Part shown: in pieces, positions 9,340 through 33,785 of the stretch
Layout: every line of letters starts with the position of its first letter
Numbering within the stretch: the stretch's first letter is position 1
Assembly (NCBI RefSeq): GCF_008642315.1
Contig: NZ_CP029192.1
Span: 124,001 to 188,000, forward strand
Direction: 5' to 3'
DNA: 64,000 bases
Source of the DNA: Streptomyces venezuelae
Lineage (GTDB): Bacteria > Actinomycetota > Actinomycetes > Streptomycetales > Streptomycetaceae
The notes under the pieces: generated by a model
Databases searched by the model: none
What the model was told of the DNA's origin: nothing
Seen by the model: the letters and a program-made list of their open reading frames with translations, nothing else
Position numbers and translations under genes: made by a program

Positions 9340-9402
9340 TTGCAGAAATAGTGACACGGCCCGCGCCCCGCACCAAGGGCCCTCCAAGGTGACGTGGGTC
9401 AC
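9340..9402 (-). promoter_or_regulatory. Shared promoter/operator element, copy 1 (phz operon)
   Basis: Reading on the minus strand: palindrome GTGACCCACGTCAC, then CTTGGTGCGG, then CCGTGTCACTATTTC. TTGGTG and CACTAT are separated by 17 bp and would serve as -35 and -10 boxes. The same arrangement, with matching intervening bases, recurs before the mevalonate kinase and tetrahydroxynaphthalene synthase operons. A 400-bp leader with short repeats of the type TATTCGG separates it from phzB. Confidence 0.7.
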
Positions 9403-9679
9403 GGCCGGGGCGGGGGTGGGGGCGCCAACTGGCGGCGCGGGGCGCGGTGTTGGGGAGCGGCGCCGGGGCGCGGTGTCGGGGCGCGGCGCCGGGGCGCGGC
9501 GGGGATCGGGCTGTCCGGCGGGCGCCCTCGTCCAGCCCCCTCTCCCCTCCCCCGCCCCGCCCCGCCCCGCCCGGCCCGGCCTCGATGCCTGCCGCTCTCC
9601 TGCCGCTCTCCTGCCGCGCCGCTGCTGGTGCGCCGCCCGGCGCGGGTGGGGCGTGCCGGGCGGCGGGTCGGTGGGCCCG

Positions 9680-9761
9680 CTAGGGCCTGTGTCGGACGTC
9701 CCGTCGTCCGCCCGGAGGGCGGGCGCCGCGGGGCAGGCGGGACTTCCGACACAGGCCCTAG
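9680..9761. repeat. 82-bp near-perfect inverted repeat at the qcrB stop codon
   Basis: Arms of 24 bp with one mismatch (17 bp perfect: CTAGGGCCTGTGTCGGA and its complement) enclose a GC-rich 34-bp centre with smaller hairpins. The qcrB stop codon lies inside the right arm. It can serve as a terminator for the leftward qcrB transcript, although no T-tract follows. The long arms, starting with AGGGCCTGT, also look like ends of a small mobile element. Confidence 0.6.
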
Positions 9762-11455
9762 GGCTGTTGCCGGTCCGGCCCGGTGTGTGCTTGGGCGGGG
9801 GCGGGCGGGGCGGGGGGCGGGTGCCCGCCCGGGGCGGGATCGAGGTGGTGCAGGGCTTCTTGCATCTCCTGCGGGGTGGGTGGGGGGATCTGGCCGCCGG
9901 CCAGCCAGCGGCTGAGGCGGTGGCGCACCGTCTGGGTGCGGGAGCGGGGGTTGGGGATGCCGTCGCGGTCCGTGCGGGCGGGGGCCGGCAGCGCGGCGGG
10001 GACGTCCCGGGAGAGCAGCAGGTACTCCTGCGCGCGGTCGAGGCGCTCGTGGACCTCGGTGAACTCGCCGTGCGGCAGCCGCTTGATCCGGCCGGTCTCC
10101 CGGCCGTGCAGGAGCTTGTCGCGGTCGCGCAGTTGCAGGCCGATGCAGATCCGCCGGGTGATGACGTAGGTCAGGGCGGGGATGACGAAGACCCCGATGC
10201 GCACGGCCCAGGTGATGGCGTTCATGGACAGGTGGAACCGCTCGGCCAGGATGTCGTTGGAGCCGCCGAAGAACAGCACCAGGTAGAAGGCGGCCAGCGA
10301 GCAGACGAAGGCGGTGCGGGCGGGCTGCTCGCGGGGCCGGTCCAGCAGGTGGTGCTCGCCTTTGTCCCCGGTGATCCAGGCCTCGATGAACGGCCACAGG
10401 GCGGCGACGGCGATCAGGAGGGTGGGCAGGACGACGGCCGGGATCAGCACGCCCATGTTGACGGTGTGGCCGGCCACCGCGAACTCCCAGGCGGGGAACG
10501 CGCGCAGGGCGCCTTCCAAAAAGCCCATGTACCAGTCGGGCTGGGAGCCCTGGGAGATCTGGTCGGGCCGGTAGGGCCCGTACACCCAGACGGCGTTGAT
10601 CTGGGCGACGCCCGCCATCAGGGCCAGGACACCGGAGACCAGGAAGAAGAAGCCGCCGGCCTTGGCCGCGTAGTGCGGCATGAGCGGCTGGCCGACGACG
10701 TTGTGCTGGGTGCGGCCCGGGCCGCGGAACTGGGTGTGCTTGTGGTGGACGACCAGGATCAGGTGGATCGAGACCAGGGCCAGCATGAGGCCCGGCAGCA
10801 GCAGGATGTGCAGGCTGTAGAAGCGGGGGATGACGTCGGTGCTGGGGAACTCGCCGCCGAAGAGGAAGAACGTGGCGTAGGTGCCGACCAGCGGGATGGC
10901 GAGCGTGACGCCCTCGGCGATGCGCAGGCCGGTGCCCGAGAGGAGGTCGTCGGGCAGTGAGTAGCCCAGGAAGCCTTCCAGGGTGACCAGGACCAGCAGG
11001 GCCACGCCGATCAGCCAGTTGAGCTCGCGCGGCTTGCGGAAGGAGCCGGTCAAAAAGTGCCGCAGGGTGTGCGCCATGGTCGCGGCGATCATGGTCAGGG
11101 CCGCCCAGTGGTGCAGCTGGCGGATGAAGAGGCCGCCGCGCACCTCGAAGCTGATCCTGAGGGTGGAGGCGTAGGCCTCGGACATCTGCACGCCCTGCAG
11201 CGGGACGTGCGGGCCGTCGTAGACGGTGTGGTGCATGCTCGGGTTGAAGAACAGGGTCAGGTAGAGGCCGGTGAGGATCAGGATGATGAAGCTGTAGAGC
11301 GCGATCTCGCCGAACATGAAGGACCAGTGCTCGGGGAAGACCTTGCGCATCAAGGTGCGTCCCTTGTACAGGCCCAGGCGTGCGTCGACGTAGTCGGCGA
11401 TGCGCTCGCCGGCGGGGGCCTGTCCGCGCCGTGGCGCCTTGTCGGTGATGCTCAT
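9758..11455 (-). CDS. qcrB: Solitary cytochrome bc1 cytochrome b subunit (QcrB paralogue)
   Basis: Actinomycete-type menaquinol:cytochrome c reductase cytochrome b, 565 aa, an integral membrane protein with eight or more hydrophobic helices. Heme-ligating His pairs are seen in RQLHHWAALTM...HTLRH and HILLLPG...HLILVVHHKH, the Qo-site signature is PDWY, and TGDKGEHHLLDRPR is typical of Streptomyces QcrB. The C terminus ends in a Pro-rich tail. No qcrA or qcrC lies beside it, so this is not the housekeeping qcrCAB operon. In a cluster for quinone-like and phenazine products, a duplicated QcrB is best read as a drug-tolerant target copy; this is inference. A GGGAGGG ribosome site lies 9 bp before the chosen ATG. 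Confidence 0.92.
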   Translation of the reverse strand: MSITDKAPRRGQAPAGERIADYVDARLGLYKGRTLMRKVFPEHWSFMFGEIALYSFIILILTGLYLTLFFNPSMHHTVYDGPHVPLQGVQMSEAYASTLRISFEVRGGLFIRQLHHWAALTMIAATMAHTLRHFLTGSFRKPRELNWLIGVALLVLVTLEGFLGYSLPDDLLSGTGLRIAEGVTLAIPLVGTYATFFLFGGEFPSTDVIPRFYSLHILLLPGLMLALVSIHLILVVHHKHTQFRGPGRTQHNVVGQPLMPHYAAKAGGFFFLVSGVLALMAGVAQINAVWVYGPYRPDQISQGSQPDWYMGFLEGALRAFPAWEFAVAGHTVNMGVLIPAVVLPTLLIAVAALWPFIEAWITGDKGEHHLLDRPREQPARTAFVCSLAAFYLVLFFGGSNDILAERFHLSMNAITWAVRIGVFVIPALTYVITRRICIGLQLRDRDKLLHGRETGRIKRLPHGEFTEVHERLDRAQEYLLLSRDVPAALPAPARTDRDGIPNPRSRTQTVRHRLSRWLAGGQIPPPTPQEMQEALHHLDPAPGGHPPPAPPAPAQAHTGPDRQQP

Positions 11456-11611
11456 GCCCGCGCGCCCTCCCGTTGCCGCTCGGCCGTCTCGGGCACGCCC
11501 TCGCCGTGCGGTGACCGGCCGGTGGTGGGGGCGGCCTGCAGCGGCGCGAACGGGCTGGTGCCCCGGAGCGGATCGAACGCTATCGAGCCCGGTCGCGGGC
11601 GGACAACCGCG

Positions 11612-14450: not shown

Positions 14451-15077
14451 ATGGAGTTCCACTCATGCCCCAGGAACCATGCCCAGGAAGTCCGTGCCGC
14501 CGCCGGGTCCGTGCTCTGTGTCCCGTGCCTGGGGCAGCTGGAACGTAACCTGCGCACGCTTCCCGGTCTCCACCAGGAGGGGCTGTACCACGTTCTGTCG
14601 GCCTCCCGGCGGCGGAACCCGACAAAGGTGTCGGGCAGCCGCAAGCGGGACCATCTGAACATGTCCGCGCTGGATGCCAGGAACAACAGTCTGGCGGTCC
14701 TGGAATCGTGGTCCTGTTTCGTCGCGGAGAAACTCGGCCCGGCGGTTCCCGGCCGTTCCGTGCCGGCCCTGACGGGTTTCTTGCTGCACCATCTCCAGTG
14801 GCTGACCGGCCGGCCGCCCGCCGCGGAATTCGCCGATGAGATCGAGGGTCTGCACCTGGAATTGCTGCGGGCCATCGACCCGGAGCCCGGTGAGCACAAT
14901 GCGGTCCTCGTCGCGTGCGTCGTGGTCGGCTGCCCGGGAAAGATCAGCACGTCGCCGCGGCAGCAGGAACGTGCCGGAAAGAGCGGTCTTGGCTGCTCGG
15001 CGGGGCATGCCTGGGAAATGCGTGAACTGCTTGCCGTAGGGCATCTCATGAACCGACAGCGAAAGGACGCCGCATGA
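14451..15077 (+). CDS. Cys-rich putative regulatory protein (OvmZ-like, tentative)
   Basis: 208-aa protein with an N-terminal Cys cluster (CPRNH...LCVPCLGQLERNLRTLPGLHQE), resembling the short zinc-ribbon-like leader found in many actinomycete small DNA-associated proteins, followed by a mostly helical region. An AAGGAG site precedes the ATG and the stop codon overlaps the next ATG. Pairing with a tiny HTH protein recalls the ovmZ/ovmW pair of angucycline clusters, which influences antibiotic production; I make that link from memory of the gene arrangement, not from alignment. It is one of only two plus-strand genes between the truncated oxidase at the left edge and the TetR gene at 44.7 kb. 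Confidence 0.7.
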   Translation: MEFHSCPRNHAQEVRAAAGSVLCVPCLGQLERNLRTLPGLHQEGLYHVLSASRRRNPTKVSGSRKRDHLNMSALDARNNSLAVLESWSCFVAEKLGPAVPGRSVPALTGFLLHHLQWLTGRPPAAEFADEIEGLHLELLRAIDPEPGEHNAVLVACVVVGCPGKISTSPRQQERAGKSGLGCSAGHAWEMRELLAVGHLMNRQRKDAA

Positions 15078-15256
15078 ACAGGCCACCACGTCACCGGCTC
15101 GTTCCCACGAACGTGGCCGCGCTGGCCGCGGGGGTGTCCGAGGCGACCATCCGCAAGTGGGTGAGCCGGGGAAAGATAACGCGTTATGGAACTCCGGGCC
15201 GCTCGGAGTTCGACATCGAGGAACTCACGGTGATCGCCCTGCAGCGCCGGCGCTGA
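15074..15256 (+). CDS. Mini helix-turn-helix DNA-binding protein (OvmW-like, tentative)
   Basis: 60-aa protein consisting of little more than one MerR/excisionase-type winged HTH: ALAAGVSEATIRKWVSRGKI followed by a wing TRYGTPGRSEFDIEEL. It overlaps the preceding gene by four bases (ATGA), so the two products are made together and probably act together. Such mini-HTH proteins bind DNA or modify the specificity of a partner. It is a candidate pathway regulator for the divergent prenyl synthase gene or the larger cluster; this is inference. Confidence 0.75.
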   Translation: MNRPPRHRLVPTNVAALAAGVSEATIRKWVSRGKITRYGTPGRSEFDIEELTVIALQRRR

Positions 15257-15443: not shown

Positions 15444-16877
15444 TCACCGGTCGGGGGCGGCGGGCTGGGGGCGTGCCAGGGCCCGTTCGGTGAGCGGGCC
15501 GGCCGCTCCGGTGTAGGCCTCGGGGGCGAACAGGTCCCCGCAGCCGGCCTCCGCCTCTTTCAGGGCGGCGGCGGCCCGCTCGTCCGCGCGCAGCAGGGCG
15601 GCCAGGGGGGTGCCGGTGCGTGCCGCCCGGGCGGAGGCCTCGTTCAGCAGCTGCCGTGCGGCGGCCTTGCCCAGCAGCGGGGTCAGGGCGGCGGCGATCC
15701 GTTCGGAGACGATCTGGCCGCCGGTCAGCGCGGTGTTGGCGCGCATGCGGGCGGGGTCGACCGTCAGGCGGGAGACGAGTTCCGCCGTCTGGTGGGCCGC
15801 TCCCCCGGCCAGCCGCAGCAGGGCGCGCAGCGGTTCCCACTCGGCGTGCCAGGCGCCGGCCGAGCGTTCGTCCTCGCTGAGCATGCAGCCCAGCACGGTG
15901 GCGGCGAGCTGGGGGGCCTGCAGGGCGGCCGAGCGCACCGCGGTGGCCAGGACGGGGTTGCGTTTGTGCGGCATCGCCGAGGAGGCGCCCCGGCCGGCGG
16001 GTGCCGGTTCGTGCACCTCGCCGGTCTCGGTGCGGGTCAGCGCCAGCACGTCGACGGAGATCTTGCCCAGGGCGGTGCAGGTGAACGCGGTGGCCTGGGC
16101 CAGGTCCGCGACCGGGGTGCGCAGCACGTGCCAGGGCAGCAGCGGGGCCGCCAGGCCGAGTTCGGCGGCGAAGGTGCGGGTGAGGCCGGTGACGTAGGCG
16201 GCGGGTTCGGCGTCCTGGGCGTGCTGGAGGTAGCCGGCCAGGGTGCCGGCGGCCCCGCCGAGCTGGACGGGGCCCGGGTCGAGGGCGCGCAGTTTGTCCG
16301 CCGCGTCCAGCACCAGGTGGCGCCAGCCCGCCGCTTTGAGCCCGAAGGTGGTGGGCACGGCGTGCAGGGCCAGGGTGCGGCCGGCCATGAGGGTGCCCTG
16401 GTGGGTGCGGGCCAGGTCGGCCAGCGCCCGGGCGGCGGCGTCCAGGTCGGCGCGGATCAGCCGCAGCGCGCGGGCGGCCACCAGCATCATCGCCGTGTCG
16501 AGGATGTCCTGGCTGGTGGAGCCGCGGTGGACGTAGCGGGCCGCGTCGGCGTCCTGCGCGGCCACCACGGCAGTGAACTCCTGGACCAGTGCCACCACCG
16601 GGTTGGCGGACTGGCGGGCCTGGCGGGCCAGCGCCCGCAGGTCCAGGTGCTCGGCCCGGGCCGCCCGGCTGATCACCCGGGCGGCCGCCCGGGGCACCGT
16701 GCCGAGCCGGGCCTGGGCCCGGCTCAGCGCCGCCTCGGCGTCCAGCATGGCCTGCAGCCAGGCCCCGTCGCCGACCGCGGCCGCCACGGGGGTGTCCGCC
16801 CAGACCGGCGCGAGCAGCCCGCTCTCCACCGCCTCCCCACCGCACCCGGCCGCACCGGGCGGGAAGTCATCGGGCAT
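15444..16877 (-). CDS. Fumarase/aspartase-superfamily lyase, candidate nitrosuccinate lyase (CreD/FzmL-like)
   Basis: 477-aa member of the superfamily containing adenylosuccinate lyase, 3-carboxymuconate cycloisomerase and nitrosuccinate lyase. The signature loop GRGASSAMPHKRNP, with catalytic Ser, is intact, as are HRGSTSQDILDTA and TALTGGQIVSER. By sequence alone it could be annotated as PcaB or PurB, but the overlap with a CreE/FzmM-like flavoprotein gene points to the aspartate-nitrosuccinate route, in which this lyase releases nitrous acid and fumarate. The start ATG has an AAGGAG site placed inside the end of the upstream gene (11-bp overlap). It is the last gene of the mevalonate/nitrite operon. 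Confidence 0.85.
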   Translation of the reverse strand: MPDDFPPGAAGCGGEAVESGLLAPVWADTPVAAAVGDGAWLQAMLDAEAALSRAQARLGTVPRAAARVISRAARAEHLDLRALARQARQSANPVVALVQEFTAVVAAQDADAARYVHRGSTSQDILDTAMMLVAARALRLIRADLDAAARALADLARTHQGTLMAGRTLALHAVPTTFGLKAAGWRHLVLDAADKLRALDPGPVQLGGAAGTLAGYLQHAQDAEPAAYVTGLTRTFAAELGLAAPLLPWHVLRTPVADLAQATAFTCTALGKISVDVLALTRTETGEVHEPAPAGRGASSAMPHKRNPVLATAVRSAALQAPQLAATVLGCMLSEDERSAGAWHAEWEPLRALLRLAGGAAHQTAELVSRLTVDPARMRANTALTGGQIVSERIAAALTPLLGKAAARQLLNEASARAARTGTPLAALLRADERAAAALKEAEAGCGDLFAPEAYTGAAGPLTERALARPQPAAPDR

Positions 16878-19494
16878 GGGGGGCTCCTTGTCCGGGGGCA
16901 GCGGTGCCGGGCCTCGCGTTCTGCGCGGGGGCGGGGTCCGGGGTCGGTGCGGGGGCGGGCTCTGGGGTCGGTCCGGGGGCGGGGCCTTGGATTGGCCCCG
17001 GGGCGGGGTCGGGTCCGGCCGCGGGGGCGGTCGCGGAGCTGGTCGCGGGCCCGGCCGCAGGGGTGGTCGCGGGCCCGGTTTCCGGGCTGGTTTCGGACCT
17101 GGTGGCGGGGCCGGTGTCGGGGCTGGTTTCCGGCCCGGTCGCGGGCCCGGCCGCAGGGGTGGTCGCGGGGCTGGTTTCGGACCTGGTGGCGGGGCCGGTG
17201 TCGGGGCTGGTTTCCGGCCCGGTCGCGGACGCAGCCGCGGGGCTGGTCCCGGCCCCGGTCGCAGAGCCGGTATCGAGCCCGGTCGCGGGGCCGGTCTCAG
17301 ACCCGGTACCAACACCGGTCCCAGACCCGGCGTCAGGACCGCTCACAGGCCCGGTGTCGGGGCCGGTCACAGGCCCGGTATCGGGACCGCTCACAGGCCC
17401 GGTATCGGGGGCGGTCACAGGCCCGGTATCGGGACCGCTCACAGGCCCGGTATCGGGGGCGGTCACAGGCCCGGTATCGGGACCGCTCACAGGCCCGGTG
17501 CCGGGGGCGGTCACAGGCCCGGTGTCGGGGGTGGTTGGGGTGCAGGACCAGGCGGCGCGGGCTATGGCGTCGGCGTCGGTGAGGGTGACCGAGTTGACGC
17601 CGGGGCGGATGCCGGCGGCGGTCACCCAGTGCACCGACTCGGTGGGCACCCCGAAGGCGAAGCGCCGCGGGTGGGCGCGGCCGGCCGCGTCGATCAGGTG
17701 GAAGGGGCGGCGGGTGACGGCCAGCCCGTCGGTCTGCACGCTCTCGCCGGAGCGGGTGCGGATGCGGTAGGCACTGCACTGGCCGCGCTCCAGCAGGTCG
17801 CGCAGCAGCGGGTCGCCGGTGCGGCGCAGCGTGATCGCGGGCAGGCGGGCCTCGACCAGGGCTCCCACCCGCACCGCGGAGTGCGGCACCTGCGGGGAGG
17901 CGACGGTGTAGCCGTGGGCGTCCGCGCTCACCTGCAGGCCCGGCCCGATGACCCGCAGCACGCCGGCCTCGATCAGCGCGACCATCTCCTCGACGCGGCG
18001 GGCCGGCGGGCCGATGGACAGGTGCGCGTTGAGCGGGGTGTACCAGCCGTCCAGGTCGGCGCGGTGGGAGTCGCCGTGCAGGCCGCCGTGGTCGACGATC
18101 AGGCGGATCTCGTTGCGCAGGTCCCGCAGGACGTCCAGGGCCGCCTTGAGGGGGCCGGTGACATTGCCGGCGCGGGCCTCGGCCACGTCCTGGCGCAGGT
18201 GGTCCAGGAGCCAGCCGGTGAAGTCGTGCGGGCCGGTGAACTCCCGGTCGCGGTAGGGCCGGGCGAGCAGGTCCCAGTCCCAGCGGTCCTTGTCGCCGAT
18301 GCCATAGGCCTCCAGGACCGCGTCGGTCTGCTCTCGGCGTGCGCCGGCGGCCAGGTAGTCGCGCCGGAGCCGGGCCGCCCGGGCACCGTCGCCGCGGGAG
18401 GTGAGCAGCGTCGTGTAGTAGACGGTCTCGGCCTCCCGGGCGATCAGCGGCCACACCTCGCGGGCGAAGTCCAGGCCGTCGCGGTGGTGCAGGCGGCGCA
18501 GGTCGGCGATGCGTGCGGGGGTGAGCAGCAGCGGCTCGTGGCGGCCGTGCGGGCCCTTCTCGTTCTCGCCGCGGGCCTGGTAGGGGATGCCGCGCCGGGA
18601 GCCCGCGTAGAGGCGGGGCTCCTTCCCGCTGGGGTGGTAGACCAGCCGGCTGCCGGCGCGGGCGAAGGTGCCGCCGCGGCCGGCGGTGAGCTGGGCCAGG
18701 TAGTCGAAGAAGTTCAGGCCCAGGCCGCGCAGCAGCACCGTGGCGCCCGGGTCCAGGACGTCCAGGTCGACGTCGGCGGGGTTGGCCGGCGCGATGTGGC
18801 GCAGGCCCAGCCGGGCGGCCCGGGCGGCGAAGTCCCGTTCGGGCCCGGTGGCGTGGGCCGGCAAGTGGCCCTGGCACAGGATCACCGCGTCCAGGGCGTG
18901 CAGGCGGGTGCCGTCGGCCAGCAGCACGCGCTGACGCGGCACGTCAGCAGTGGCGGGGCCGGTGGCGGGGGTAGGGCCGGTGGCGGTGGCGGGGTTGGGG
19001 TCGTCGTCGTCCAGGGTCAGGGCCAGGGTGCGGTGGGTGGTGATGTGCACATGGGCCGGCGCGGCCTCCACGACGCGCCGGTAGGCCCAGTGCAGGTAGT
19101 GGCCGTAGAACGCGCGGGTGGGATAGGTGTCGGGGCCCAGGGCGCGGGCCTGGGCCAGGACGGGCGCCGGGTACTGGCCGCGGATGCGGCCGGCGGCCAG
19201 CTGCCGGGCCCACTCGTACAGGCTCGGCCCCGGCTCCAGCGGGCCGTGCAGTTCCACGCTGGCGTCGGTGAACAGGGAGATCTGTCCGGCCACGGTGTTC
19301 ATGAGCAGGTGGGGCGACTGGTCGGTGCGCCACACCTTGCCGGGCCCGGGCGGATAGGGGTCGACCAGGTGGATGCGCAGAGGAACGTGCGGGGAGCGGC
19401 GGCGCGCGTTGGCGCACAGCCGCTCCAGGACGGACAGGCCGCGCGGGCCGGCGCCGATCACGCACACCGTGTTCTGTTTCTGTGGTGCTGTCAT
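16867..19494 (-). CDS. FAD/NAD(P)-binding N-oxygenase-like protein (CreE/FzmM-like) with repetitive tail
   Basis: 875-aa protein. Residues 1 to about 650 form an NAD_binding_9-type flavoprotein with an N-terminal dinucleotide site VCVIGAGPRGLSVLERL and blocks such as HLLMNTVAGQISLFTD and GLNFFDYLAQLTAGRGG. CreE and FzmM, which oxidise aspartate to nitrosuccinate, are of this type, and the overlapping lyase gene completes the pair that makes nitrous acid. About 220 C-terminal residues are Thr/Pro/Gly/Ala repeats including eight octapeptides of the form TGPV(S/T)(G/A)PD; family members normally end after the catalytic part. The ATG chosen (MTAPQKQN) sits just before the nucleotide-binding fold. 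Other N-hydroxylases of this class are possible. Confidence 0.85.
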   Translation of the reverse strand: MTAPQKQNTVCVIGAGPRGLSVLERLCANARRRSPHVPLRIHLVDPYPPGPGKVWRTDQSPHLLMNTVAGQISLFTDASVELHGPLEPGPSLYEWARQLAAGRIRGQYPAPVLAQARALGPDTYPTRAFYGHYLHWAYRRVVEAAPAHVHITTHRTLALTLDDDDPNPATATGPTPATGPATADVPRQRVLLADGTRLHALDAVILCQGHLPAHATGPERDFAARAARLGLRHIAPANPADVDLDVLDPGATVLLRGLGLNFFDYLAQLTAGRGGTFARAGSRLVYHPSGKEPRLYAGSRRGIPYQARGENEKGPHGRHEPLLLTPARIADLRRLHHRDGLDFAREVWPLIAREAETVYYTTLLTSRGDGARAARLRRDYLAAGARREQTDAVLEAYGIGDKDRWDWDLLARPYRDREFTGPHDFTGWLLDHLRQDVAEARAGNVTGPLKAALDVLRDLRNEIRLIVDHGGLHGDSHRADLDGWYTPLNAHLSIGPPARRVEEMVALIEAGVLRVIGPGLQVSADAHGYTVASPQVPHSAVRVGALVEARLPAITLRRTGDPLLRDLLERGQCSAYRIRTRSGESVQTDGLAVTRRPFHLIDAAGRAHPRRFAFGVPTESVHWVTAAGIRPGVNSVTLTDADAIARAAWSCTPTTPDTGPVTAPGTGPVSGPDTGPVTAPDTGPVSGPDTGPVTAPDTGPVSGPDTGPVTGPDTGPVSGPDAGSGTGVGTGSETGPATGLDTGSATGAGTSPAAASATGPETSPDTGPATRSETSPATTPAAGPATGPETSPDTGPATRSETSPETGPATTPAAGPATSSATAPAAGPDPAPGPIQGPAPGPTPEPAPAPTPDPAPAQNARPGTAAPGQGAPHAR
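17335..17530. repeat. 24-bp in-frame tandem repeats encoding octapeptides
   Basis: Eight 24-bp units alternate between two versions (GPVSGPD and GPVTAPD types) inside the flavoprotein tail. Less regular Pro/Thr/Ala repeats continue down to about 17040. The period is a multiple of three and the frame is kept, unlike the intergenic repeats of this window. Confidence 0.85.
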
Positions 19495-19834
19495 GTCTAC
19501 CGTCTCTGCTGGGTCACGCAACGGGGCGGCGACCGCACGCCGAGGGCCACGACCGCGGTGCGCGGTGTGCCCTGGTGCGTCCGGCCGGCGAGCACCGTCG
19601 CGGGCAGGCCCCGACGGCGCTCCGGCGCACGTCCCGCCGGCCCGGGAGCAACCTCAACCGGGCGGCGGACCCGGCCCGTTGCGCGCCAGGGCGCACCGGG
19701 GCGGGTACAGGGGACGTGCGGCAGGGGTGTATCGGCGCGCGGTGCGCCCGGCCGCGGTGGTGCGGCCGGGCGCGGCGCTGCGCGTACGTGCGGTGCCGGC
19801 CCTCATCCGCTGTCCCGGGGCGGGCGGTAGCCGT

Positions 19835-23993: not shown

Positions 23994-24071
23994 CGGGCAG
24001 GGGGGACGCACCGGAATAGTGACACGGGCTTCGCCCTGACGCCTAGGGCATCAGGAAGTGGCGTGGCTCAC
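23994..24071 (-). promoter_or_regulatory. Shared promoter/operator element, copy 2 (mevalonate/nitrite operon)
   Basis: On the minus strand GTGAGCCACGCCAC (a decayed form of the GTGAC-N4-GTCAC palindrome) is followed after 30 bp by CCGTGTCACTATTCC, as in the copies near 9.4 and 33.8 kb. The conserved CCCTGCCC follows downstream. CACTAT would be the -10; the -35 equivalent (TAGGCG) is weaker. The leader to mevalonate kinase, about 450 bp, contains ATACGG repeats like the phz leader. The remainder of the gap to 24602 is GC-rich DNA without a supportable gene. Confidence 0.65.
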
Positions 24072-24772: not shown

Positions 24773-25711
24773 TCAGCGGGGTGCGGCGAGGCCGTGGGGC
24801 TCGCCGATGGTGCCGGGGACGGCAGGGCTGGCGGGGGTGGTGGGGGTGTGGAGGTTGCGGTGGATCTCCAGCGTCGCCGTGGAGCGGTTGAGGGTGATGT
24901 AGTGCAGGCCGGGGGCGCCCTCGGCCAGCAGGCGCTGGGCCATGGCGGTGGCGTACTCGACCCCGATGCGGTGGCCCTGGGCCGGGTCGTGGCGGGCGGC
25001 TTCCAGGCGGTGGGCCAGGTGTTCGGGGAACGCGGCGCCGCTCAGGGCGGCGAAGCGGCCGATCTGGCGCACGTCGGTGGCCGGCATGATCTCCGGGATG
25101 ATCGGGGTGGTGCAGCCCGCGGCGGCCACCTTGTCGCGCAGCCGCAGGTAGTCCTCGACGTGGAAGAACATCTGGGTGATGGCGTAGTCGGCGCCCGCCC
25201 GGCACTTGGCGACGAAGTGGCGGATGTCGCTGTCCCAGTCCGCCGAGCGCGGGTGGCGTTCGGGAAAGGCCGCCACGCCGACACTGAAGGCCCCCGACTC
25301 CTTGACCAGGCGCACCAGTTGGTGGGCGTGGGTGAAGCCGTCGGGGTGCGGGATCCAGGGCGCGCCCGGGTCCCCGGGCGGATCGCCGCGCACGGCCAGG
25401 ACGTCGCGGACCCCGGCGTCGGCGTACTGGCCGATGATGTGCCGCAGTTCGGCCACCGAGTGGCCGACCGCGGTCAGGTGCGCGACGGGGCGCAGGGTCG
25501 TCTCGGCCGCGATGCGTTTGGTCACCTCCACGGTGCGGTCCCGGGAGGAGCCGCCGGCCCCGTAGGTGACCGAGACGAAGGCCGGGGCCAGGGTCTCGAC
25601 CCGGCGGATGGTGTGCCACAGGGTGCGGGCCGCGGCGTCGGTCTTGGGCGGGAAGAACTCGAAGGAGAAGGACGGTGCGTCTTCTTCGACGATGTCGCGC
25701 AGTGCGGTCAC
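24773..25711 (-). CDS. metF: 5,10-methylenetetrahydrofolate reductase (MetF)
   Basis: 312-aa TIM-barrel flavoenzyme reducing methylene-THF to methyl-THF for remethylation of homocysteine. Typical sequences are [18 protein letters not shown] at the N terminus, [46 protein letters not shown] and [15 protein letters not shown]. With metK and the adenosine-kinase-like gene it forms a methyl-donor recycling cassette seen in several Streptomyces meroterpenoid clusters. S-adenosylhomocysteine hydrolase and methionine synthase are absent here. A second, primary metF probably exists elsewhere in the genome (inference). Confidence 0.94.
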
Positions 25712-25772
25712 TGCCGGCCTCCGGCGTTCGGCGTGGACAGGGCGGGCCTGGCGGGCGTTTACGGGTCGGGCC

Positions 25773-25860
25773 GCCCGGTGCCGGATGCGTCCGCCCGGTG
25801 CGGGGTGGGTCCGCCCGGTGCGGGGAGCCCGTCCGGTGCGGGGAGCCCGTCCGGTGCGGG
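25773..25860. repeat. 20-bp tandem repeats between metF and the kinase gene
   Basis: Four to five units of the GCCCGGTGCGGGGAGCCCGT type, the last ones 18 bp long, fill part of the roughly 290-bp spacer. It probably lies within the operon transcript. No coding potential is supported. Confidence 0.7.
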
Positions 25861-26003
25861 TGAGCGGGGTGCCGGCGGACGCCGAGGTCCGGGCGTTGCC
25901 CGGGGCGGCGTCAAAGCGTTGCCCCGGGGCGGCGGCAGGAGGTTGGCCCCGGGGCCGGGCCCGGCGGCCGGCGGCTGACGGCTGGGGGCCGGCGGGTTGA
26001 GGG

Positions 26004-26987
26004 TCAGGGGGCCGGGGCGAGCCGGGTCTCGATGGCGCGGGCCGCGCCGCGGCCGTAGGTCTGGTCGATGCGGTTGATCAGCTCGGCGGGGATGAGCTTG
26101 TACTCCTGGGTGCCGACCGATTCCAGGACGGTGGTGGCCAGCGCGCAGCCGAGCTGGGCGGCCCGTTCGTGCGGCAGCTGCCAGGCGGTGGCGGCCAAAA
26201 ACCCCGCGCGGAAGGCGTCGCCCGCCCCGGTGGGGTCGGTGATGTTGTCGGTGGGCACGGCCGCCACGTGCAGCCGCTGCGCGCCGGCGCGGGTGAGGGC
26301 GGCGCCGCCCGCGCCCAGGGTGGTGATCCAGGTGCCGACGCGGTCCAGGAGCTGCGGCCGGCTCCAGCCGGTGCGCTCCTGCAGCAGGGCGGCCTCGTAC
26401 TCGTTGGTGAACAGCCAGCGGGCGCCGTCCACCAACCGGCGGGCCTGCTCGCGGTCCAGGCGGGCCAGTTGCTGGGAGGGGTCGGCGGCCACCGGCAGGC
26501 CCAGGCGGTGGGCGGTGGCGGTGTGGCGCAGCATCGCCTCGGGGTCGTCGGCGCCGATCAGGACCAGGGCGGGCGGCCCGGTGCGGGCGGTGACCGCGGC
26601 CAGGTCGATGCGGGCGGCCTCGGCCATGGCGCCGGCGTAGAAGGTGGCGATCTGGTTCTGGTCCTGGTCGGTGGTGCACACGAAGCGGGCGGTGTGCAGG
26701 GTGTCACTGACCTGGACGGCGGTGGTGTCCACGCCGTGTTCGCGCAGCCAGGTGCCGTACTCGGCGAAGTCCAGGCCCGCGGCGCCGATGAGGACCGGGT
26801 CCAGCTCCAGCAGGCCCAGGCCGAAGGCGATGTTGGCGCCGACGCCGCCGCGGCGGACCTCCAGGCGGTCGGCGAGGAAGGACAGGGAGACCCGCTCCAG
26901 CTGCTCCTTGATCAGCTGCTCGGCGAAGCGGCCGGGGAACACCATCAGATGGTCGGTCGCTATCGACCCGGTCACGGCGATACGCAC
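26004..26987 (-). CDS. PfkB-family adenosine kinase
   Basis: 327-aa ribokinase-family enzyme matching actinobacterial adenosine kinase, which removes adenosine released from S-adenosylhomocysteine and so pulls methylation forward. The start is a GTG giving (M)[20 protein letters not shown], the conserved beginning of this group; AAGGAG lies 9 bp upstream. [14 protein letters not shown] (substrate side) and the anion-hole motif [15 protein letters not shown] (catalytic Asp) are intact. It sits between metK and metF on the same strand. A different nucleoside or sugar substrate cannot be excluded, but the context supports adenosine. Confidence 0.9.
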
Positions 26988-27234
26988 AAGAAAGCACTCC
27001 TTGGACCAGCGCGGGAGGCGGGGGCGGGGCGGGAAGAACCCAGCAGAAGACGGCGCGGGCAGCGCGGGCAGCCGGGCGCGGCGCAACGACGGCACAGGAA
27101 CGGTGCGGGGGCGGTGCGGGGTTGGTGTGTTCCGGGCGCGCGGCGGGGGCGGTGCCCGGCGCAGGGCCGCCCCCGCCCGTGCCGCGCGCCCGGGCCGGAC
27201 GGTGCGGTGCGGGGCGGTGCGGGGGCGGGGGCGG

Positions 27235-28449
<1,215 letters not shown>

Positions 28450-28634
28450 GACACTCCAGGGCGGTGGCGGGTGGATGTGCGGCGCAGGGGGCGAGGGGCG
28501 GCGGGGCGGGGTTGTGGTGGTGGGGCCTTGGAACTTTGGAGCTTCGGGGCTTTGGAGCTTGGGGCCGTGGGGTTGTGGGGCCGTGGGGTTCTCGGCGGCC
28601 TCTTCGCTCAGCCCGGGGGGGGGTAGTGGGCGGC

Positions 28635-28670
28635 GGCCTCACATTGCGCGGGGCTGTGTCGTCGTAGAAA
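28635..28670 (-). promoter_or_regulatory. Conserved box before metK, shared with polyprenyl synthase 1
   Basis: Read on the minus strand: TTTCTACGACGACACAGCCC, then CGCAATGTGAGG. The same words, TACGACGAAACAG and AATGTGAGG, occur with equal spacing before polyprenyl synthase 1. The palindrome that follows there is absent here. It is likely a promoter or activator site, about 190 bp before the metK start. The rest of the 478-bp gap has nothing recognisable. Confidence 0.5.
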
Positions 28671-28927
28671 GGGGACGATGCCCCGAAGGCCGTTGTGCTG
28701 CCGGGGACGGACCCGCCCACCAGCCGACGCCCGAGGCCCGTCGGCCGGCAGCCGAGGGCCGGTGGGAGAGGGCAACCGCGGCTGGTGCCGGGCCGGTTGG
28801 GGCCGGCCCGGCGGGCGGGTGGACGCGGGCGGTGTGTCCTGCTTTCGCCGGCGCGTTTTGCCGGGACGGCGGAGGCGTCCCGGTCAGGGTGCGACGGGGC
28901 GCGGCGGGGGCCGGCGGGCTGGTGGGG

Positions 28928-29551
28928 TCAGGCGGCGGCGCGTCCCGCTTTGAGGGCGGCGGCGACGTCGGTCACGCGCCGGGCCTGGTAGGCGGCGGCC
29001 TGCAACGTCACCTCACTGGGCGCCACCTGATTGCCCGGCGCCCCCGCCACATGCGAGGTGCCATACGGGTTGCCGGTCTGGAACTGCACCGGATCGGTGT
29101 AGCCGGGCGGCACGATCACCCCGCCCCAGTGATAGAACGTGTTGGCCAGCGCCAAAATCGTCGACTCCTGACCCCCGTGCAGCGTACTGCTCGACGTGAA
29201 CGCCGAATACACCTTCCCCGCCAACTTCCCCTGCGCCCACAACGGACCCGTCGTCTCGATGAACGCCCGCAACTGACTGGACGGATTACCGAACCGCGTC
29301 GGCGTCCCCCACAACACCGCATCCGCCCACACCAGATCCTCATGCACCGGCTCAGGAACCTCCGCATGCTCGGCCCGGTAGCGCTCCCAGGCCGCATTGG
29401 CCGCCACCGCCGCCGCCGGCGCCGTCTCGGCCACCCGCCGCACCCGCACCCGCGCCCCCGCCTTCTCCGCCCCCTCCGCCGCCGCATGCGCCAACGCATG
29501 CACATTGCCCATCGCACTGTAATAAACGATCGCCACGTTCACGGTTGTCAT
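28928..29551 (-). CDS. WrbA-like NAD(P)H:quinone oxidoreductase
   Basis: 207-aa flavodoxin-fold protein with the FMN-phosphate loop VYYSAMGNVHALA, WGTPTRFGNPSSQLRAF and FTSSSTLHGGQESTIL, as in WrbA. It would reduce quinones by two electrons. As the last gene after THN synthase, cupin and aminotransferase, it probably keeps a naphthoquinone intermediate in the hydroquinone form or protects the cell from redox cycling (inference). The metal-like WrbA signature GNPYGTSHVAGAPG is retained. Confidence 0.9.
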   Translation of the reverse strand: MTTVNVAIVYYSAMGNVHALAHAAAEGAEKAGARVRVRRVAETAPAAAVAANAAWERYRAEHAEVPEPVHEDLVWADAVLWGTPTRFGNPSSQLRAFIETTGPLWAQGKLAGKVYSAFTSSSTLHGGQESTILALANTFYHWGGVIVPPGYTDPVQFQTGNPYGTSHVAGAPGNQVAPSEVTLQAAAYQARRVTDVAAALKAGRAAA

Positions 29552-29694
29552 GACTGGGTTCCTTCGTGTGTGCGGGGGTGGGTGGGGCGGGCCCGGCGGC
29601 CCGCCCGGAACGGCCCGGGGGCCGGGGCGGGGGGGCGGGGGTCAGCGGCGTGGTGCGGGCGCGGTTCAGGGCTGCGGGGTGGGCGGCCGGGCGT

Positions 29695-30840
29695 TCATGC
29701 GGTGGTGGTGCGGTGGGTGCGCAGGGCGGTGCGCAGGGCGGCCACGACGCGTTCGACCTGGCCGGTGGTGAGTTCGGCGTGCATGGGGATGGCCAGGTGG
29801 CGGTGGAAGAGGTCGGCGGAGACGGGGCAGGTCTGCTTGGTCTCGAAGACCGGCTGCAGGTGGGTGGCCCAGGTGCCGTGGCCGCAGCCGATGCCCTGGC
29901 CGCGCAGGTCGGCGGCGAGGGCGGCGCGGTCGATGCGGTCGTCCAGGCGGACCAGGTAGGACTGCCAGGCGTGGGTGCGGTCGTCGGGGACCTGGGGCAG
30001 GGTCAGCAGGTCCTCGTCGGCCAGGAGGCGCTGGTAGTGGGCGGCGACCGCGGCGCGGCGGGCCAGGAGTTCCTCGATCCGGCCGATCTGCACCTGCAGG
30101 ATCGCGGCGGCGATGTCGGAGAGTTTGAAGTTGTAGCCGACCTCGGTGAATTCGGGGACGGGCAGGCCCACGACCTTGGACTGGTCGAAGATGCTGCCGA
30201 TGCCGAAGGAGGAGCGCAGCCGGGCGTCGGCGGCCACGGCGGCATCGGTGGCCACCAGGGCGCCGCCCTCGCCGCTGGTGGCGCCCTTGCGGCCGTGGAA
30301 GGACAGGCAGGCGACCTCGGCCAGGGCGCCGGCCTGGCGGCCCTGGTAGGTGGCGCCGACCGCGCAGGCGGCGTCCTCGATGAGGAAGAGGCCGTGCCGG
30401 TCGGCCAGGGCCTGCAGTTCGCGGTAGTCGGCGGGCAGGCCCACGGTGTCCACGGCGATGATGCCGACGGTCTTGGGGCCGATCAGGTCGGCGGCCGCCT
30501 GGGGGTCGATGGTGTGGGTGTCGGGGCGTACGTCGGCGAAGACGGGCACCGCGTCGAGGTAGCGCACCGCGTGGGCGGGGGCGGGGAAGGTGTAGTCGGC
30601 GACGATGACTTCGTCGCCGGGCCGGACGCCGAGGGCGAGCAGGGCCAGGTGCAGGGCGGCGCCGCAGTTGCTGACCGCGACGGCGTGGGCGTCGTAGCGC
30701 CGGGAGAGCTGGGCTTCCAGGGCTTTGCCCTTGGGGCCCTGGCCGGCGGGCCAGCCGGAGGCGAACACCTCGGCGACGGCGGCCAGTTCCTGCTCGCCCA
30801 GGCTGGCGTGGACCAGGGGGATGGGGTGGGGGTGGGTCAT
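29695..30840 (-). CDS. DegT/DnrJ/EryC1-family aminotransferase (NphE/Fur3-like)
   Basis: PLP enzyme of 381 aa. The PLP lysine lies in SFHGRKGATSGEGGAL, with VADYTFPAPAHAV and EDAACAVGA upstream. Most relatives act on keto-sugars, but in furaquinocin/naphterpin-type clusters a member next to the THN synthase aminates the oxidised naphthoquinone to 8-amino-flaviolin. No sugar genes are nearby, so that role fits best; it is inferred from context. The start lies 4 bp beyond the cupin stop codon, making a tight operon. A longer frame running up through the cupin gene is spurious. Confidence 0.88.
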   Translation of the reverse strand: MTHPHPIPLVHASLGEQELAAVAEVFASGWPAGQGPKGKALEAQLSRRYDAHAVAVSNCGAALHLALLALGVRPGDEVIVADYTFPAPAHAVRYLDAVPVFADVRPDTHTIDPQAAADLIGPKTVGIIAVDTVGLPADYRELQALADRHGLFLIEDAACAVGATYQGRQAGALAEVACLSFHGRKGATSGEGGALVATDAAVAADARLRSSFGIGSIFDQSKVVGLPVPEFTEVGYNFKLSDIAAAILQVQIGRIEELLARRAAVAAHYQRLLADEDLLTLPQVPDDRTHAWQSYLVRLDDRIDRAALAADLRGQGIGCGHGTWATHLQPVFETKQTCPVSADLFHRHLAIPMHAELTTGQVERVVAALRTALRTHRTTTA

Positions 30841-30844
30841 GTGC

Positions 30845-31384
30845 TCACTTCCCGTTGTCCGCGGTGGCGGGCGGCTGGTAGCGCAAGGGGGTGAGTTCCT
30901 GGACGTCGTAGCGCTTGCGCATGTCTTCGACGGCGGCCGCATCGACGGTGGTGCCGCGTGCCCAGATCTCGGCGATCTCTTCGAAGTAGTGCTCGTGGTC
31001 GGGCGAGGGATAGCTCTGGAAGAGCATCCGCACCGGTTTGTCGGTGGCGTTGCGGAAGGCGTGCGGGGTGCCGGGCGGCACGAACATGCAGCCGCCCTCG
31101 GCGGCGCGGATGACGCGTTCGCCGGTGGCGGACTGCCAGTGGTGCCAGGTGTCCCCGGTGCGTTCGGTGGGCTCGAAGCACAGCAGGTCCAGCTCGCCCT
31201 CCAGGACGTAGAAGAACTCCTGGGACTCGTGGTGGACGTGGGCGCCGACATCGAAGCCGGGCGGCACGACCACCTCGAAGATGGAGATGGCCGAGCCCTG
31301 CGCCTGGGTCGCCTTGAAGGTCACTTCCTGCGCCGGTGTGATCAGCTTGCGTCCCCCACCGGGCGGGAGGATCAGGGCAGTCAT
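30845..31384 (-). CDS. Cupin-domain oxygenase-like protein
   Basis: 179-aa single-domain cupin. Metal-binding motif 1 is HVHHESQEFFYVLEGEL (two His and Glu) and motif 2 is PPGTPHAFRNAT (His). Cupins beside bacterial THN synthases oxidise 1,3,6,8-tetrahydroxynaphthalene to flaviolin, and this one sits between the THN synthase and the aminotransferase, so it is a good candidate for that step. Non-oxygenase cupins cannot be excluded by sequence. Confidence 0.85.
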   Translation of the reverse strand: MTALILPPGGGRKLITPAQEVTFKATQAQGSAISIFEVVVPPGFDVGAHVHHESQEFFYVLEGELDLLCFEPTERTGDTWHHWQSATGERVIRAAEGGCMFVPPGTPHAFRNATDKPVRMLFQSYPSPDHEHYFEEIAEIWARGTTVDAAAVEDMRKRYDVQELTPLRYQPPATADNGK

Positions 31385-31725
31385 GTGTCGGGTTTCCTTC
31401 TTTCGGACGGGACCTCTCGCGTGCGCGGCCCGGAACGGTGCGGGGGCGCGGGGTGCGGGGGTGTGGTGGTGCCGGGGTGCGGTGGTGCCGGGGTGCGGTG
31501 GTGCCCGGGGGCGTGGTGCCGGAAGGTGGCGCGGGGATGCCCGGCCCGGACACGCCGGGCGTGGTGGTGCCCGGCCCGGACGTGGTGACCGGTCGGCCGT
31601 CAGGCGACCCGGCCCGGGCGCGGTGACGGGCCGGCCGTCAGGCGCGGTGGCGGGCCGGAAGGCAGGCCCCTGGGGCAGCCGGCCGGCGGTGACGGATCGG
31701 CCGGCAGGCGGGTGCGGCGGGCGGG
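31385..31725. repeat. Gene-free spacer with GGTGGTGCCGGGGTGC-type repeats
   Basis: 341 bp between the THN synthase and the cupin. Short direct repeats of about 16 bp (GCGGTGGTGCCGGGGT) cluster at 31460-31530, followed by GC-rich DNA rich in CGGCCGTCAGGCG words. No gene is supported. Confidence 0.55.
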
Positions 31726-32790
31726 TCAGCCGGCGGGCGGGCTGTCGCTGTTCCAGCGGCCCAGGGCCATCTCGGCGGTGATGCCGGGGCCGAAGCCGGC
31801 GATCAGGCCGGTGGCGTCCGGCATCGGGGTGTCCTCTTCGAACAGGCGCAGGGCGGCGTCCAGGACGACGGCGCTGGCGATGTTGCCGTACTCGGTCAGC
31901 GTCGACCAGCTGTGGCGGAAGACCTTGCGGTCCACGTCCAGGAACTTGGCCAGGTCGTTGAGGATGCGCGGGCCGCCGGCGTGGATGATGTAGAAGTCGA
32001 GGTTGGAGGCGTCCCACCGGTGGCCGGCGGCGAACTCGCGCAGCACCGGGGCGAGCGGCTCCATGGTGCCCGGCACCCGGCGGTCCAGCTGGAAGTGGAA
32101 GCCGGTGTCGCGCACCGAGTAGGAGATCCAGTCCTCGGTGTGGGGGATGAGGTAGGAGGAGTTGCTCTCCAGTTCGATGCCGGTGCCGCCGCGGCCGCGG
32201 ACCACGGCGGCCGCGACCGCGTCGCCGAACAGTCCGTCGGACAGCAGGGAGCCGATGTCGTCCATGTCGGGCTGGTAGCACAGCGAGCACAGCTCGCAGG
32301 AGACGATCAGGACGTTGCTGCCGGGGTGGGCCAGGCAGAAGTCGTGGGCCCGGTTGATGGCGGCGCCGCCGGCCGCGCAGCCCAGCTGGGCGATGGGGAT
32401 CTGGCGGGTGTCGGAGCGAAAGCCCATCTTGTTGATGAGCCAGGCCGTCAGCGAGGGCATGAGGAACCCGGTGCACGACACGTAGATGATCGCGTCGATG
32501 TCGCGGGCGTCGACCTCGGCGTTGGCCAGGGCTTCCTCGACGACCTCGGGGGTGCGCTTTTTCGACTCGGCCTCGTAGATGCGGTTGCGTTCGGTCAGGC
32601 CCGGGTGTTTGAGGGTCTGCTCGATGGGCTGGACGATATGCCGCTTCAGCACCCCCGTGTTGCGGATCAGCCGCAGGGCCAGGGGAAGCTGCGGCTTCCC
32701 GGCGTGGACCCGCTCGGCGAATTCCAGCGTCTCTTCGGCCGTGATGACGTTCTCCGGCACACGCACCGACGGCTTGCATAGCCTGGGCAT
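31726..32790 (-). CDS. rppA: 1,3,6,8-tetrahydroxynaphthalene synthase (RppA-type type III PKS)
   Basis: Chalcone-synthase-fold type III polyketide synthase, 354 aa, using five malonyl-CoA to make THN. It closely matches RppA: LVQPIE-like HIVQPIEQTLKHPGL, YVSCTGFLMPSLTAWLINKM, catalytic Cys in AQLGCAAGGAAINRAHDFC, His in YIIHAGGPRIL, Asn in LTEYGNIASAVVLDA and C-terminal GFGPGITAEMALG. It is the first gene of the naphthoquinone operon, with a shared promoter about 0.95 kb upstream. THN may go to melanin, but the aminotransferase, mevalonate and SAM genes point to a meroterpenoid naphthoquinone. Confidence 0.96.
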   Translation of the reverse strand: MPRLCKPSVRVPENVITAEETLEFAERVHAGKPQLPLALRLIRNTGVLKRHIVQPIEQTLKHPGLTERNRIYEAESKKRTPEVVEEALANAEVDARDIDAIIYVSCTGFLMPSLTAWLINKMGFRSDTRQIPIAQLGCAAGGAAINRAHDFCLAHPGSNVLIVSCELCSLCYQPDMDDIGSLLSDGLFGDAVAAAVVRGRGGTGIELESNSSYLIPHTEDWISYSVRDTGFHFQLDRRVPGTMEPLAPVLREFAAGHRWDASNLDFYIIHAGGPRILNDLAKFLDVDRKVFRHSWSTLTEYGNIASAVVLDAALRLFEEDTPMPDATGLIAGFGPGITAEMALGRWNSDSPPAG

Positions 32791-33122
32791 ATCGGGAATC
32801 CACTTTCTCTAGAGTCTGCCTTCTGCACGTGACTGAAGCGCTCGCGCACTCCCGGCGGCGCCGCCCGGGCGGGCGGCGGCAAGAACAGCGGTGACATCGC
32901 CTGCCGTGCCGCCTTCGCCGGGCCCGCGCCGGGTCCGCGCCGGGGCGCGGAACCAGGGGGTGCGGGCGCCGGGGAAGGCGGCACGAAATGAACGGCGGGC
33001 CCCCCGCCTCCTCCTTGGCCCTCCCGCCCAACTGCCTGCACGCCCGGCCCGGCCCGGCCCGGATGAGGTCGGCCGGCAAGCGGCCGGCCCGGACTGACCG
33101 GGCGGATGGGCGAGGGCGGAGG

Positions 33123-33245
33123 ACGGGCGCAAGGAGGGCAAGCGGACGCGGAAACAGTGGCGGGCGCAAGGGGGGGGCAAGCGGATGCGGAAACAGTGGC
33201 GGGCGCAAGGGGGGGGCAAGCGGACGCGGAAACAGTGGCGGGCAC
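33123..33245. repeat. 39-bp tandem repeat, three units
   Basis: Units containing GCAAGCGGACGCGGAAACAG recur at exact 39-bp intervals (GAAACAG at 33151, 33190 and 33229) with few changes. It lies between the shared promoter and the THN synthase start. Confidence 0.85.
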
Positions 33246-33711
33246 AGACGCGCCGGAGGAATCAGAGCAGGGTGGCGGCCGTGCGGGCGCACGACGCCGC
33301 ACCGCGCCGCACCGCCGTGCGGGCGGGCGCGTCGCGGGCAACTCGCCGGGCGCGTGGACGCGGTGGGGCCGCTCACGCCTGGGCCCCCTCCCCCGGCCGG
33401 CGCACGCCGCCCGCCCGCAAACCGACCGGCCCCGACGGCTCCCGCACCCGACCGCGCACCCCGCCCCTGGCGTGCGCTGGGCCAGGGCCGACGGCACCTT
33501 GTCCACTCAGTTGCCGTGGACAGGGGGTGCACCGAGCGCCGGCGCCGGGAAAAATGCCCCCGGCGTGGCCTGCCGGGCCGCCGACATCACCGCCTGCGGG
33601 CGCGGAAATTACCGTGGGAAAAAGGCGAGCCGCAAAGACGTGAAATCGGCTTAGCCCTGGAGGGGTGGCGGGATGTGATGCTCAACCTGCCGCCGTGGTA
33701 ACGGATTTGGG

Positions 33712-33785
33712 CAGGGAAGTCGTGCGGAAATAGTGACACGGATTCCGTCCCCGCACCAAGAGCCCCTGAAAGTGACGTAGGTCAC
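33712..33785 (-). promoter_or_regulatory. Shared promoter/operator element, copy 3 (naphthoquinone operon)
   Basis: On the minus strand GTGACCTACGTCAC is followed by CTTGGTGCGGGG and CCGTGTCACTATTTC, nearly the same as copy 1. The candidate -35 TTGGTG and -10 CACTAT are 18 bp apart, and CCCTGCCC follows. The long distance to the THN synthase start (about 0.95 kb) implies a long leader or an undetected small gene. Confidence 0.7.

Follow-up and report, generated by a model that had tools for sequence, protein, structure and literature searches.

How several scattered antibiotic operons of one Streptomyces chromosome come to carry the same conserved promoter is the question raised by a 64,000-nucleotide stretch of Streptomyces venezuelae DNA (contig NZ_CP029192.1, positions 124,001 to 188,000 of the forward strand; this whole stretch is termed the window). 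A compound promoter module was identified here in three copies, all on the minus strand, at 9321..9402 (copy 1, before a phenazine operon), 23989..24071 (copy 2, before genes of mevalonate kinase, 3-hydroxy-3-methylglutaryl-CoA (HMG-CoA) synthase, KASIII and nitrite type) and 33705..33785 (copy 3, before a tetrahydroxynaphthalene (THN) synthase operon). Sequence comparison makes it very likely that the module is a real, conserved promoter that defines a regulon, and a pair of proteins encoded in the window, termed Z and W, is put forward below as its candidate regulator.

Each copy consists of a palindrome, two hexamers and a conserved leader, the gap between the palindrome and the first hexamer being exactly 12 bp in all three. 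In copy 1 the palindrome GTGACCCACGTCAC (9402-9389) is followed by TTGGTG (9376-9371) and CACTAT (9353-9348) at a hexamer spacing of 17 bp, the latter forming an extended -10 (TGT-CACTAT) with a predicted start at approximately 9341 and the conserved leader CCCTGCCCGAAA. Copy 2 has the palindrome GTGAGCCACGCCAC (24071-24058), TAGGCG (24045-24040) and CACTAT (24021-24016), and copy 3 has GTGACCTACGTCAC (33785-33772), TTGGTG (33759-33754) and CACTAT (33735-33730); both show a spacing of 18 bp, with predicted starts at approximately 24009 and 33723, respectively. The coordinates and spacings given for the three copies in an earlier sequence-only reading of the window were found to be correct by minus-strand reading and a pattern scan. 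That reading had described the palindrome of copy 2 as decayed, which holds with respect to the form GTGAC-N4-GTCAC present in copies 1 and 3, but not with respect to the looser form GTG(N)6GNCAC, which copy 2 still fits. CACTAT sits inside the motif CCGTGTCACTATTYC in each copy, and the conserved stretch was found to run approximately 24 bp beyond this motif, adding a block, CCCTGCCCRAAA, that the reading had not named.

The occurrence of the module in the genome was then compared with chance. With at most one mismatch allowed, the pattern GTGTCACTATTYC was matched five times in the genome (8.94 Mb), each time exactly, and a reversed-pattern control once. In the genus, exact matches were identified in 11 of 392 genomes against two for the reversed control, with seven of the 11 (own genome included) carrying real modules and four appearing chance-like by eye. 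A full model, which was built with the window copies included, scored copies 3, 1 and 2 at 73, 72 and 65 bits in the window (73.1, 71.9 and 65 bits for the individual copies), the next place reaching 9.3 bits. With a profile of 25 modules, six copies stood out clearly (32.8-74.5 bits), the next place in the genome reaching 15.0 bits. A leave-own-out profile, for which 20 modules were taken solely from other genomes, including one from the close relative G081, recovered the identical six (32.0-68.8 bits; next 15.7) and scored copies 1, 2 and 3 at 67.8, 59.9 and 67.7 bits. Those outside the window are a near-identical duplicate of copy 3, inverted and situated at the right end of the chromosome, a copy at G000:120.8 kb (G000 being the genome of the window), which lies 3.1 kb left of the window and is without the palindrome, and a copy at G000:1.606 Mb, 1.46 Mb from the window, which precedes an aromatic prenyltransferase gene (PF11468, 9.8e-62). 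Many unrelated copies across the genome, named beforehand as the result that would speak against a regulon, were thus not seen; all six precede related biosynthesis genes. A single regulon over the phenazine, mevalonate/nitrite and naphthoquinone operons, as had been proposed, is likely, but three operons is too narrow a description, as the remote prenyltransferase-mevalonate operon and a cyclase/sigma factor/prenyltransferase operon left of the window also carry the module.

Across the genus, profile matches at E <= 0.001 were found in 16 of 392 genomes, own included, in a search with stricter filters in which weak matches were lost; the 392-genome draws for the pattern, profile, W and SARP1 searches are assumed to be identical. 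A pattern scan of GTDB genomes returned at least 118 stretches, with 80 of 118 listed. Among the matches listed, 16 were aligned, being 15 from Streptomyces and Kitasatospora, all modules, and one from Dietzia, a chance match; two of the 15 are identical in sequence to the modules of G217 and G021. The remaining stretches, including two from Bifidobacterium, were screened by script only, over all loci, which added L106 and L113. By this route at least 13 further module genomes were identified, including Streptomyces aculeolatus, longwoodensis, galbus, xanthophaeus and actinomycinicus and Kitasatospora purpeofusca. Scores in 19 other module genomes fell into two groups, clear matches from 32.9 bits upwards and the remaining matches listed at E <= 1, none of which exceeded 15.7 bits.

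The genes downstream of these modules, named partly by reading and identified for part of the 392-genome profile matches, recur in Streptomyces and Kitasatospora as THN synthase genes, mevalonate kinase operons and aromatic prenyltransferase genes. Other arrangements comprise an AraC-like gene before a THN synthase or prenyl-synthase-like gene, an acyltransferase-like gene before mevalonate kinase, and a flavodoxin-like gene (L013). A further operon class was found at L183, L187 and L191, with L183 reading AAA_28, flavodoxin-like, SnoaL-like, AvrD-like and KASIII. That the module was recently duplicated together with the genes behind it, implying no common regulation, agrees with the leader sequence being common to copies within one genome, but the sequence separating the blocks has diverged, in contrast to the blocks themselves, their spacing and the -10 pattern, which are kept over many genomes, and the same operon classes carry the module repeatedly, making this explanation barely credible.

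The view that the module is a real promoter draws its support from the six clear genome copies and from the second hexamer, in which A2 and T6 were kept in all 57 complete profile matches while positions 4-5 vary (CACTAT 41, CACACT 5, CACGAT 4, CACTCT 3, CACGCT 3 and CACAAT 1); one further match, L194, is partial. Conservation of A2 and T6 is the pattern sought for a -10 read by sigma70 (HrdB). Owing to this, and to a TG one base upstream, the hexamer can be categorized as a predicted -10 of the extended sigma70 type. At the -35 region TTGG is conserved, with a spacing of 17-18 bp in the window copies, and the remainder is unlike TTGACA.

A different reader was considered for this core, namely a sigma factor of the ECF41 type (extracytoplasmic function, SigJ/SigG1-like), encoded at G000:117.3 kb, which would use TGTCAC as its -35. 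The sequence TGTCAC does resemble the -35 of ECF41 sigma factors, and a SigJ-type gene is present in the operon of the sixth copy. A homologue of at least 60% identity was, however, absent from five of 20 module genomes (G021, G068, G399, G400 and G402), and the conserved -10 pattern, CA-C-N-N-T, has the distance from TTGG expected for sigma70. In the related mfq cluster, deletion of MfqQ, described as a sigma factor with a SnoaL domain, ended phenazine production in a heterologous host, but marfuraquinocins were made without it (PMC12814520; here and below, statements from published work refer to the consulted parts of the papers cited). The ECF sigma factor was rejected as the reader of TGTCAC on co-occurrence, the cognate factor not being found wherever the promoter occurs, and this explanation is considered very improbable.

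The palindrome was found in register in 44 of 58 profile matches, and the form GTG(N)6GNCAC in all three window copies and in 40 of the 57 collected modules. This form corresponds to the strong Crp consensus of Streptomyces coelicolor (PMC10033298). The sequence-only reading had suggested a regulator without obvious match to the heptamers of known Streptomyces antibiotic regulatory proteins (SARPs) or to receptor autoregulatory elements; the palindrome does correspond to a known form, that of Crp. It could be proposed that the palindrome is the true operator, for Crp or a similar dimer, with the rest an ordinary promoter, and at L194 the palindrome and TTGG are indeed kept while the core is lost, with no downstream operon recognised. 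In 14 of 58 profile matches the reverse was found, the palindrome being missing by the measure applied here and the -10 and leader core retained. Classical Crp sites are flanked by TGTGA...TCACA, and these flanks are not conserved in the module, where the palindrome is an optional element within a promoter of fixed, compound layout. Control by a regulator as broad as Crp would also leave the tie to W-carrying genomes, described below, unexplained. The palindrome is thus present upstream of the promoter, as had been claimed, without belonging to its core. It is probably an accessory, Crp-like site, and its being the operator proper appears improbable.

Conservation also extends into the transcribed leader, as the CTGCC block begins approximately 9 nt past the predicted start. 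An Rfam scan of the window at gathering thresholds gave no matches, and RNAalifold on 57 leaders gave no consensus pairs. In an arm-swap test on 50 non-redundant leaders, own arms paired at -16.2 kcal/mol, against -15.0 for swapped arms and -11.9 after shuffling, with none of 2000 permutations as good, a result possibly inflated by the relatedness of the leaders. The mean fold z of the leaders was -1.3, against -0.4 for a control stretch. Counting against a hairpin is that, on average, 41% of single arm swaps pair as well as or better than the own arm. A leader hairpin with varying register is considered likely from these predictions.

The best candidate for a regulator of the module was identified as W (15074..15256, plus strand), a mini helix-turn-helix (HTH) protein of 60 aa of the OvmW/NapW type. 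Its predicted model is MerR-like (pLDDT 91), with a weak Pfam match to the HTH_17/MerR fold (HTH_17, 20.3 bits, below the cut-off of 27). The top Foldseek matches of the model include BldC (6ama, 6amk; E 0.006-0.009, TM 0.64-0.66; none at E <= 0.001), with SoxR, other MerR-like and excisionase folds scoring similarly; in sequence, by contrast, W lies far below the NCBIfam BldC cut-off (17.8 bits against 77). Directly upstream lies Z (14451..15077, plus strand), an OvmZ-like protein of 208 aa coupled to W through an ATGA overlap at 15074-15077. Z shows 57% identity over 89% of the query to a protein named 'OvmZ protein' in UniRef (P0224) and belongs to a short subclass, the characterised OvmZ itself not being in the alignment. 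Among 29 sequences of the Z family (alignment A2), C6, C23 and C26 are at least 90% conserved and H10 less so, while C156, C161, C182 and H186 are invariant; these sets suggest zinc sites in proteins that have been called domain-less.

Small HTH proteins with a coupled, domain-less partner are known as OvmZ/OvmW, NapU1/NapW, EpaI/EpaH, Phz-orf13/PhzW and TylU/TylW (PMC8910723, PMC11264864). OvmZ and OvmW are reported to be interdependent activators of a biosynthetic promoter, both being needed in the strains tested (PMC8910723, PMC11264864), and joint activation of PovmOI has been confirmed (PMC9440138). Such pairs reportedly occur widely among actinobacterial clusters and can be used to activate silent ones, with type III polyketide synthase (PKS) clusters forming the second largest group (75 records; PMC11264864). 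The targets tested for these pairs are angucycline-type clusters, whereas the operons here are of naphthoquinone, phenazine and mevalonate type, and the candidate target promoter now defined extends to a second locus at a distance of 1.46 Mb. The consulted sections of this literature (PMC8910723, PMC11264864, PMC9440138) describe no DNA site for W or OvmW, and the words 'motif' and 'footprint' are absent from the main text of PMC11264864. The module provides a concrete candidate target promoter for OvmZ/OvmW-type pairs, with many natural variants.

Genome comparison favoured W, the mini-HTH protein, among the regulators proposed in the sequence-only reading. Gene families were compared in 21 module neighbourhoods, 15 of which contained W by tblastn, with one more in part; Z was beside W in 15 of the 16 neighbourhoods with a W match. 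With the G105 protein as query, W at 75% identity or more was found in 14 of 16 module genomes and in none of 376 module-less genomes (Fisher p=6.5e-24, which is overstated because the genomes are related), and at 80-93% in all 13 module genomes of the GTDB route among the matches listed. In nine genomes (G068, G087, G105, G141, G217, G393, G395, G396 and G398) a module follows the W gene on the same strand, at most 350 bp after the end of the gene. The module was seen only in genomes that also carry a W-family homologue. Approached from the gene side, a mevalonate kinase match (E <= 1e-40) was found in 22 of 348 genomes, of which 13 had both the module and a W homologue and nine had neither; as those nine kinase genomes lack W along with the module, this comparison separates the regulator from the pathway. 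Among the nine, G152, G238 and G159 have close kinases (57-66%) and the other six distant or partial ones. Three genomes with module and W and no kinase match (G047, G184 and G101) were not used as evidence, their place in the 348-genome draw not being evident.

A number of observations weigh against Z and W as the regulators. Co-occurrence of W and module among related genomes is non-independent and amounts to association only. Two module genomes (G050 and G101) have W homologues at 62-65% only, while 29 of the 376 module-less genomes have weaker homologues (47-73%). There is no site inside the module that can be pointed to as that of W, the L194 match retains the palindrome rather than the core, and the remote locus has a second Z with no W beside it. 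In the mfq cluster, overexpression of MfqL, a small HTH protein which we infer from size only to be a W protein, did not activate the cluster, in contrast to MfqF, and MfqL could not be deleted (PMC12814520). The SARP1 protein of the window (BTAD and Trans_reg_C; 37804..38625, minus strand; SARP2 lies at 39814..40896, minus strand) was likewise found at 68% identity or more in 15 of 16 module genomes, against 64 of 376 others (hand count; p=1.6e-10).

This last result bears on the alternative that a SARP of the cluster activates the module directly, Z and W being helpers or irrelevant. Overexpression of the SARP MfqF switched on both pathways of the mfq cluster, which is of a like kind (PMC12814520), and for TylU, which is homologous to Z, a role in helping the SARP TylS is described (PMC8910723). 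SARP1-like proteins are, however, common in genomes without the module, G238 even having a 79% SARP1 and mevalonate kinase with neither W nor module, and a SARP1 match above 45% is absent from three of 20 module genomes (G395, G401 and G403). Heptamer direct repeats, as at promoters controlled by SARPs such as MfqF and TylS, are also not clearly seen in the module: base identity at offsets 3-22 in 25 aligned modules showed no distinct 11-bp peak upstream of the -10 (0.37 at offset 11, 0.415 at offset 12, 0.37 at offset 20), and copy 1 alone has CCTTGGA/CCTTGGT 11 bp apart. Direct activation by a SARP is thus regarded as unlikely, though deserving of consideration. A SARP acting above Z and W, or Z helping a SARP as proposed for TylU and TylS, would fit both sets of facts, SARP1 then being a possible upstream or co-regulator.

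Z and W are retained as the most specific candidate regulators of the module, a reading considered somewhat more likely than not. Under this proposal the pair, and not a broad regulator, would act on the module promoter in front of all module operons, so that the window operons and the remote prenyltransferase-mevalonate operon would answer to it together. The mfq (marfuraquinocin-phenaziterpene) clusters are similar in being hybrids of meroterpenoid and phenazine biosynthesis with one regulator activating both arms, and different in that a promoter element common to the arms is not described in the consulted part of the report (PMC12814520). The TetR-like PpzV regulates prenylation in Streptomyces anulatus (PMC3326630), and other regulators therefore act in such clusters. 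Judged by titles, the four papers containing GTGTCACTATT included nothing on Streptomyces, and among the further papers listed no title concerned a promoter common to these clusters.

The remote copy was found to head a prenyltransferase-mevalonate operon without mevalonate kinase (L006, G000:C1:1598175-1605816; the second OvmZ homologue lies at approximately 1598175-1598792). After the prenyltransferase follow, by reading, diphosphomevalonate decarboxylase, phosphomevalonate kinase, isopentenyl-diphosphate isomerase, HMG-CoA reductase and HMG-CoA synthase, names that rest on homology to families found in the mevalonate operons of other module genomes. In the same stretch of the relative G081, a mevalonate kinase gene lies between prenyltransferase and decarboxylase, where the own genome has approximately 70 bp left between the matched segments; the order prenyltransferase then kinase was also found at L077 (Kitasatospora purpeofusca) and L085 (Streptomyces sp. 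NRRL F-6131). At E <= 1e-40 the own genome has a single mevalonate kinase match, located in the window under copy 2 (22516-23553; NCBIfam TIGR00549, 230.6 bits, cut-off 163), accompanied by an HMG-CoA synthase and a KASIII-type gene. When a 100 kb region containing the window was searched, nothing at E <= 1e-3 was obtained for the decarboxylase, the reductase or the isomerase, and the phosphomevalonate kinase query yielded one weak partial match, lying inside the mevalonate kinase. As the kinase is absent remotely and present only in the window under copy 2, the two loci appear to form one pathway under a common promoter, and the gene order in other genomes suggests loss of the kinase at the remote locus rather than gain elsewhere. 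This would be a natural case in which common regulation, and not proximity, may hold a pathway together, and the remote operon, linked to the cluster by a cis-element, would be missed by cluster tools based on neighbourhood. This also marks a difference from the mfq and marfuraquinocin clusters, as for S. niveus SCSIO 3406 mevalonate pathway genes are not annotated in the consulted part of the paper (PMC7987185).

Taken further, it is tentatively proposed, at somewhat less than an even chance, that the BldC-like W of 60 aa and a cysteine-rich coactivator recognise the -10 and leader core, and that the promoter cassette with its 5' mRNA hairpin represents a mobile type of regulon for prenylated aromatics in Streptomyces and Kitasatospora, with the remote operon depending on the window kinase. 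Genes anywhere on the chromosome could then be wired in by acquiring the cassette, and a pathway could therefore be cut in two.

The operon behind copy 1 (3148..9132, minus strand) encodes, by Pfam, phzA/B-like, DAHP synthase, isochorismatase (phzD-like), phzE-like, phzG-like and second phzA/B-like products. Behind copy 2 (15444..23553, minus strand) the mevalonate kinase is followed by HMG-CoA synthase (21184-22380), KASIII (19835-21160), an FAD-NAD(P)-binding protein (16867-19521) and a lyase open reading frame (15444-17315), the last two of which we take to be CreE/CreD-like. Behind copy 3 (24773..32790, minus strand) Pfam identified a type III PKS (31726-32790), presumably the THN synthase, together with a cupin protein, a DegT aminotransferase, a flavodoxin-like protein, S-adenosylmethionine synthetase, a PfkB kinase and MTHFR; the synthetase, PfkB-type kinase and MTHFR genes (24773-28449), which close this operon, form a methyl-supply set within a secondary-metabolite operon. 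Left of the window, the module at L179 (G000:C1:116220-120885) is followed by genes for a squalene-hopene-cyclase-like protein, a DUF6220-like protein, a SigJ/ECF-type sigma factor and an aromatic prenyltransferase, and another prenyltransferase-family gene lies nearby (121359-122240).

The palindrome GTGAC-N4-GTCAC occurs in perfect form at two further places in the window, 2721-2734 and 44681-44694, with no other part of the module; one is situated before or within the start of a polyprenyl synthase gene, and the other adjoins a sequence that we take to resemble an autoregulatory element. An AfsA-type (butyrolactone) gene at 49078-50388, near TetR and SARP genes, is likely to be a signalling input to the cluster. 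Window positions 28671-41025 match the right chromosome end (L007, G000:C1:8929762-8942078) in inverted orientation. As this match has 59 gap openings and no mismatches, it is probably a terminal inverted repeat in an assembly with indel errors, the right end of which seems to be cut off, and the cluster may thus occur twice in the chromosome.

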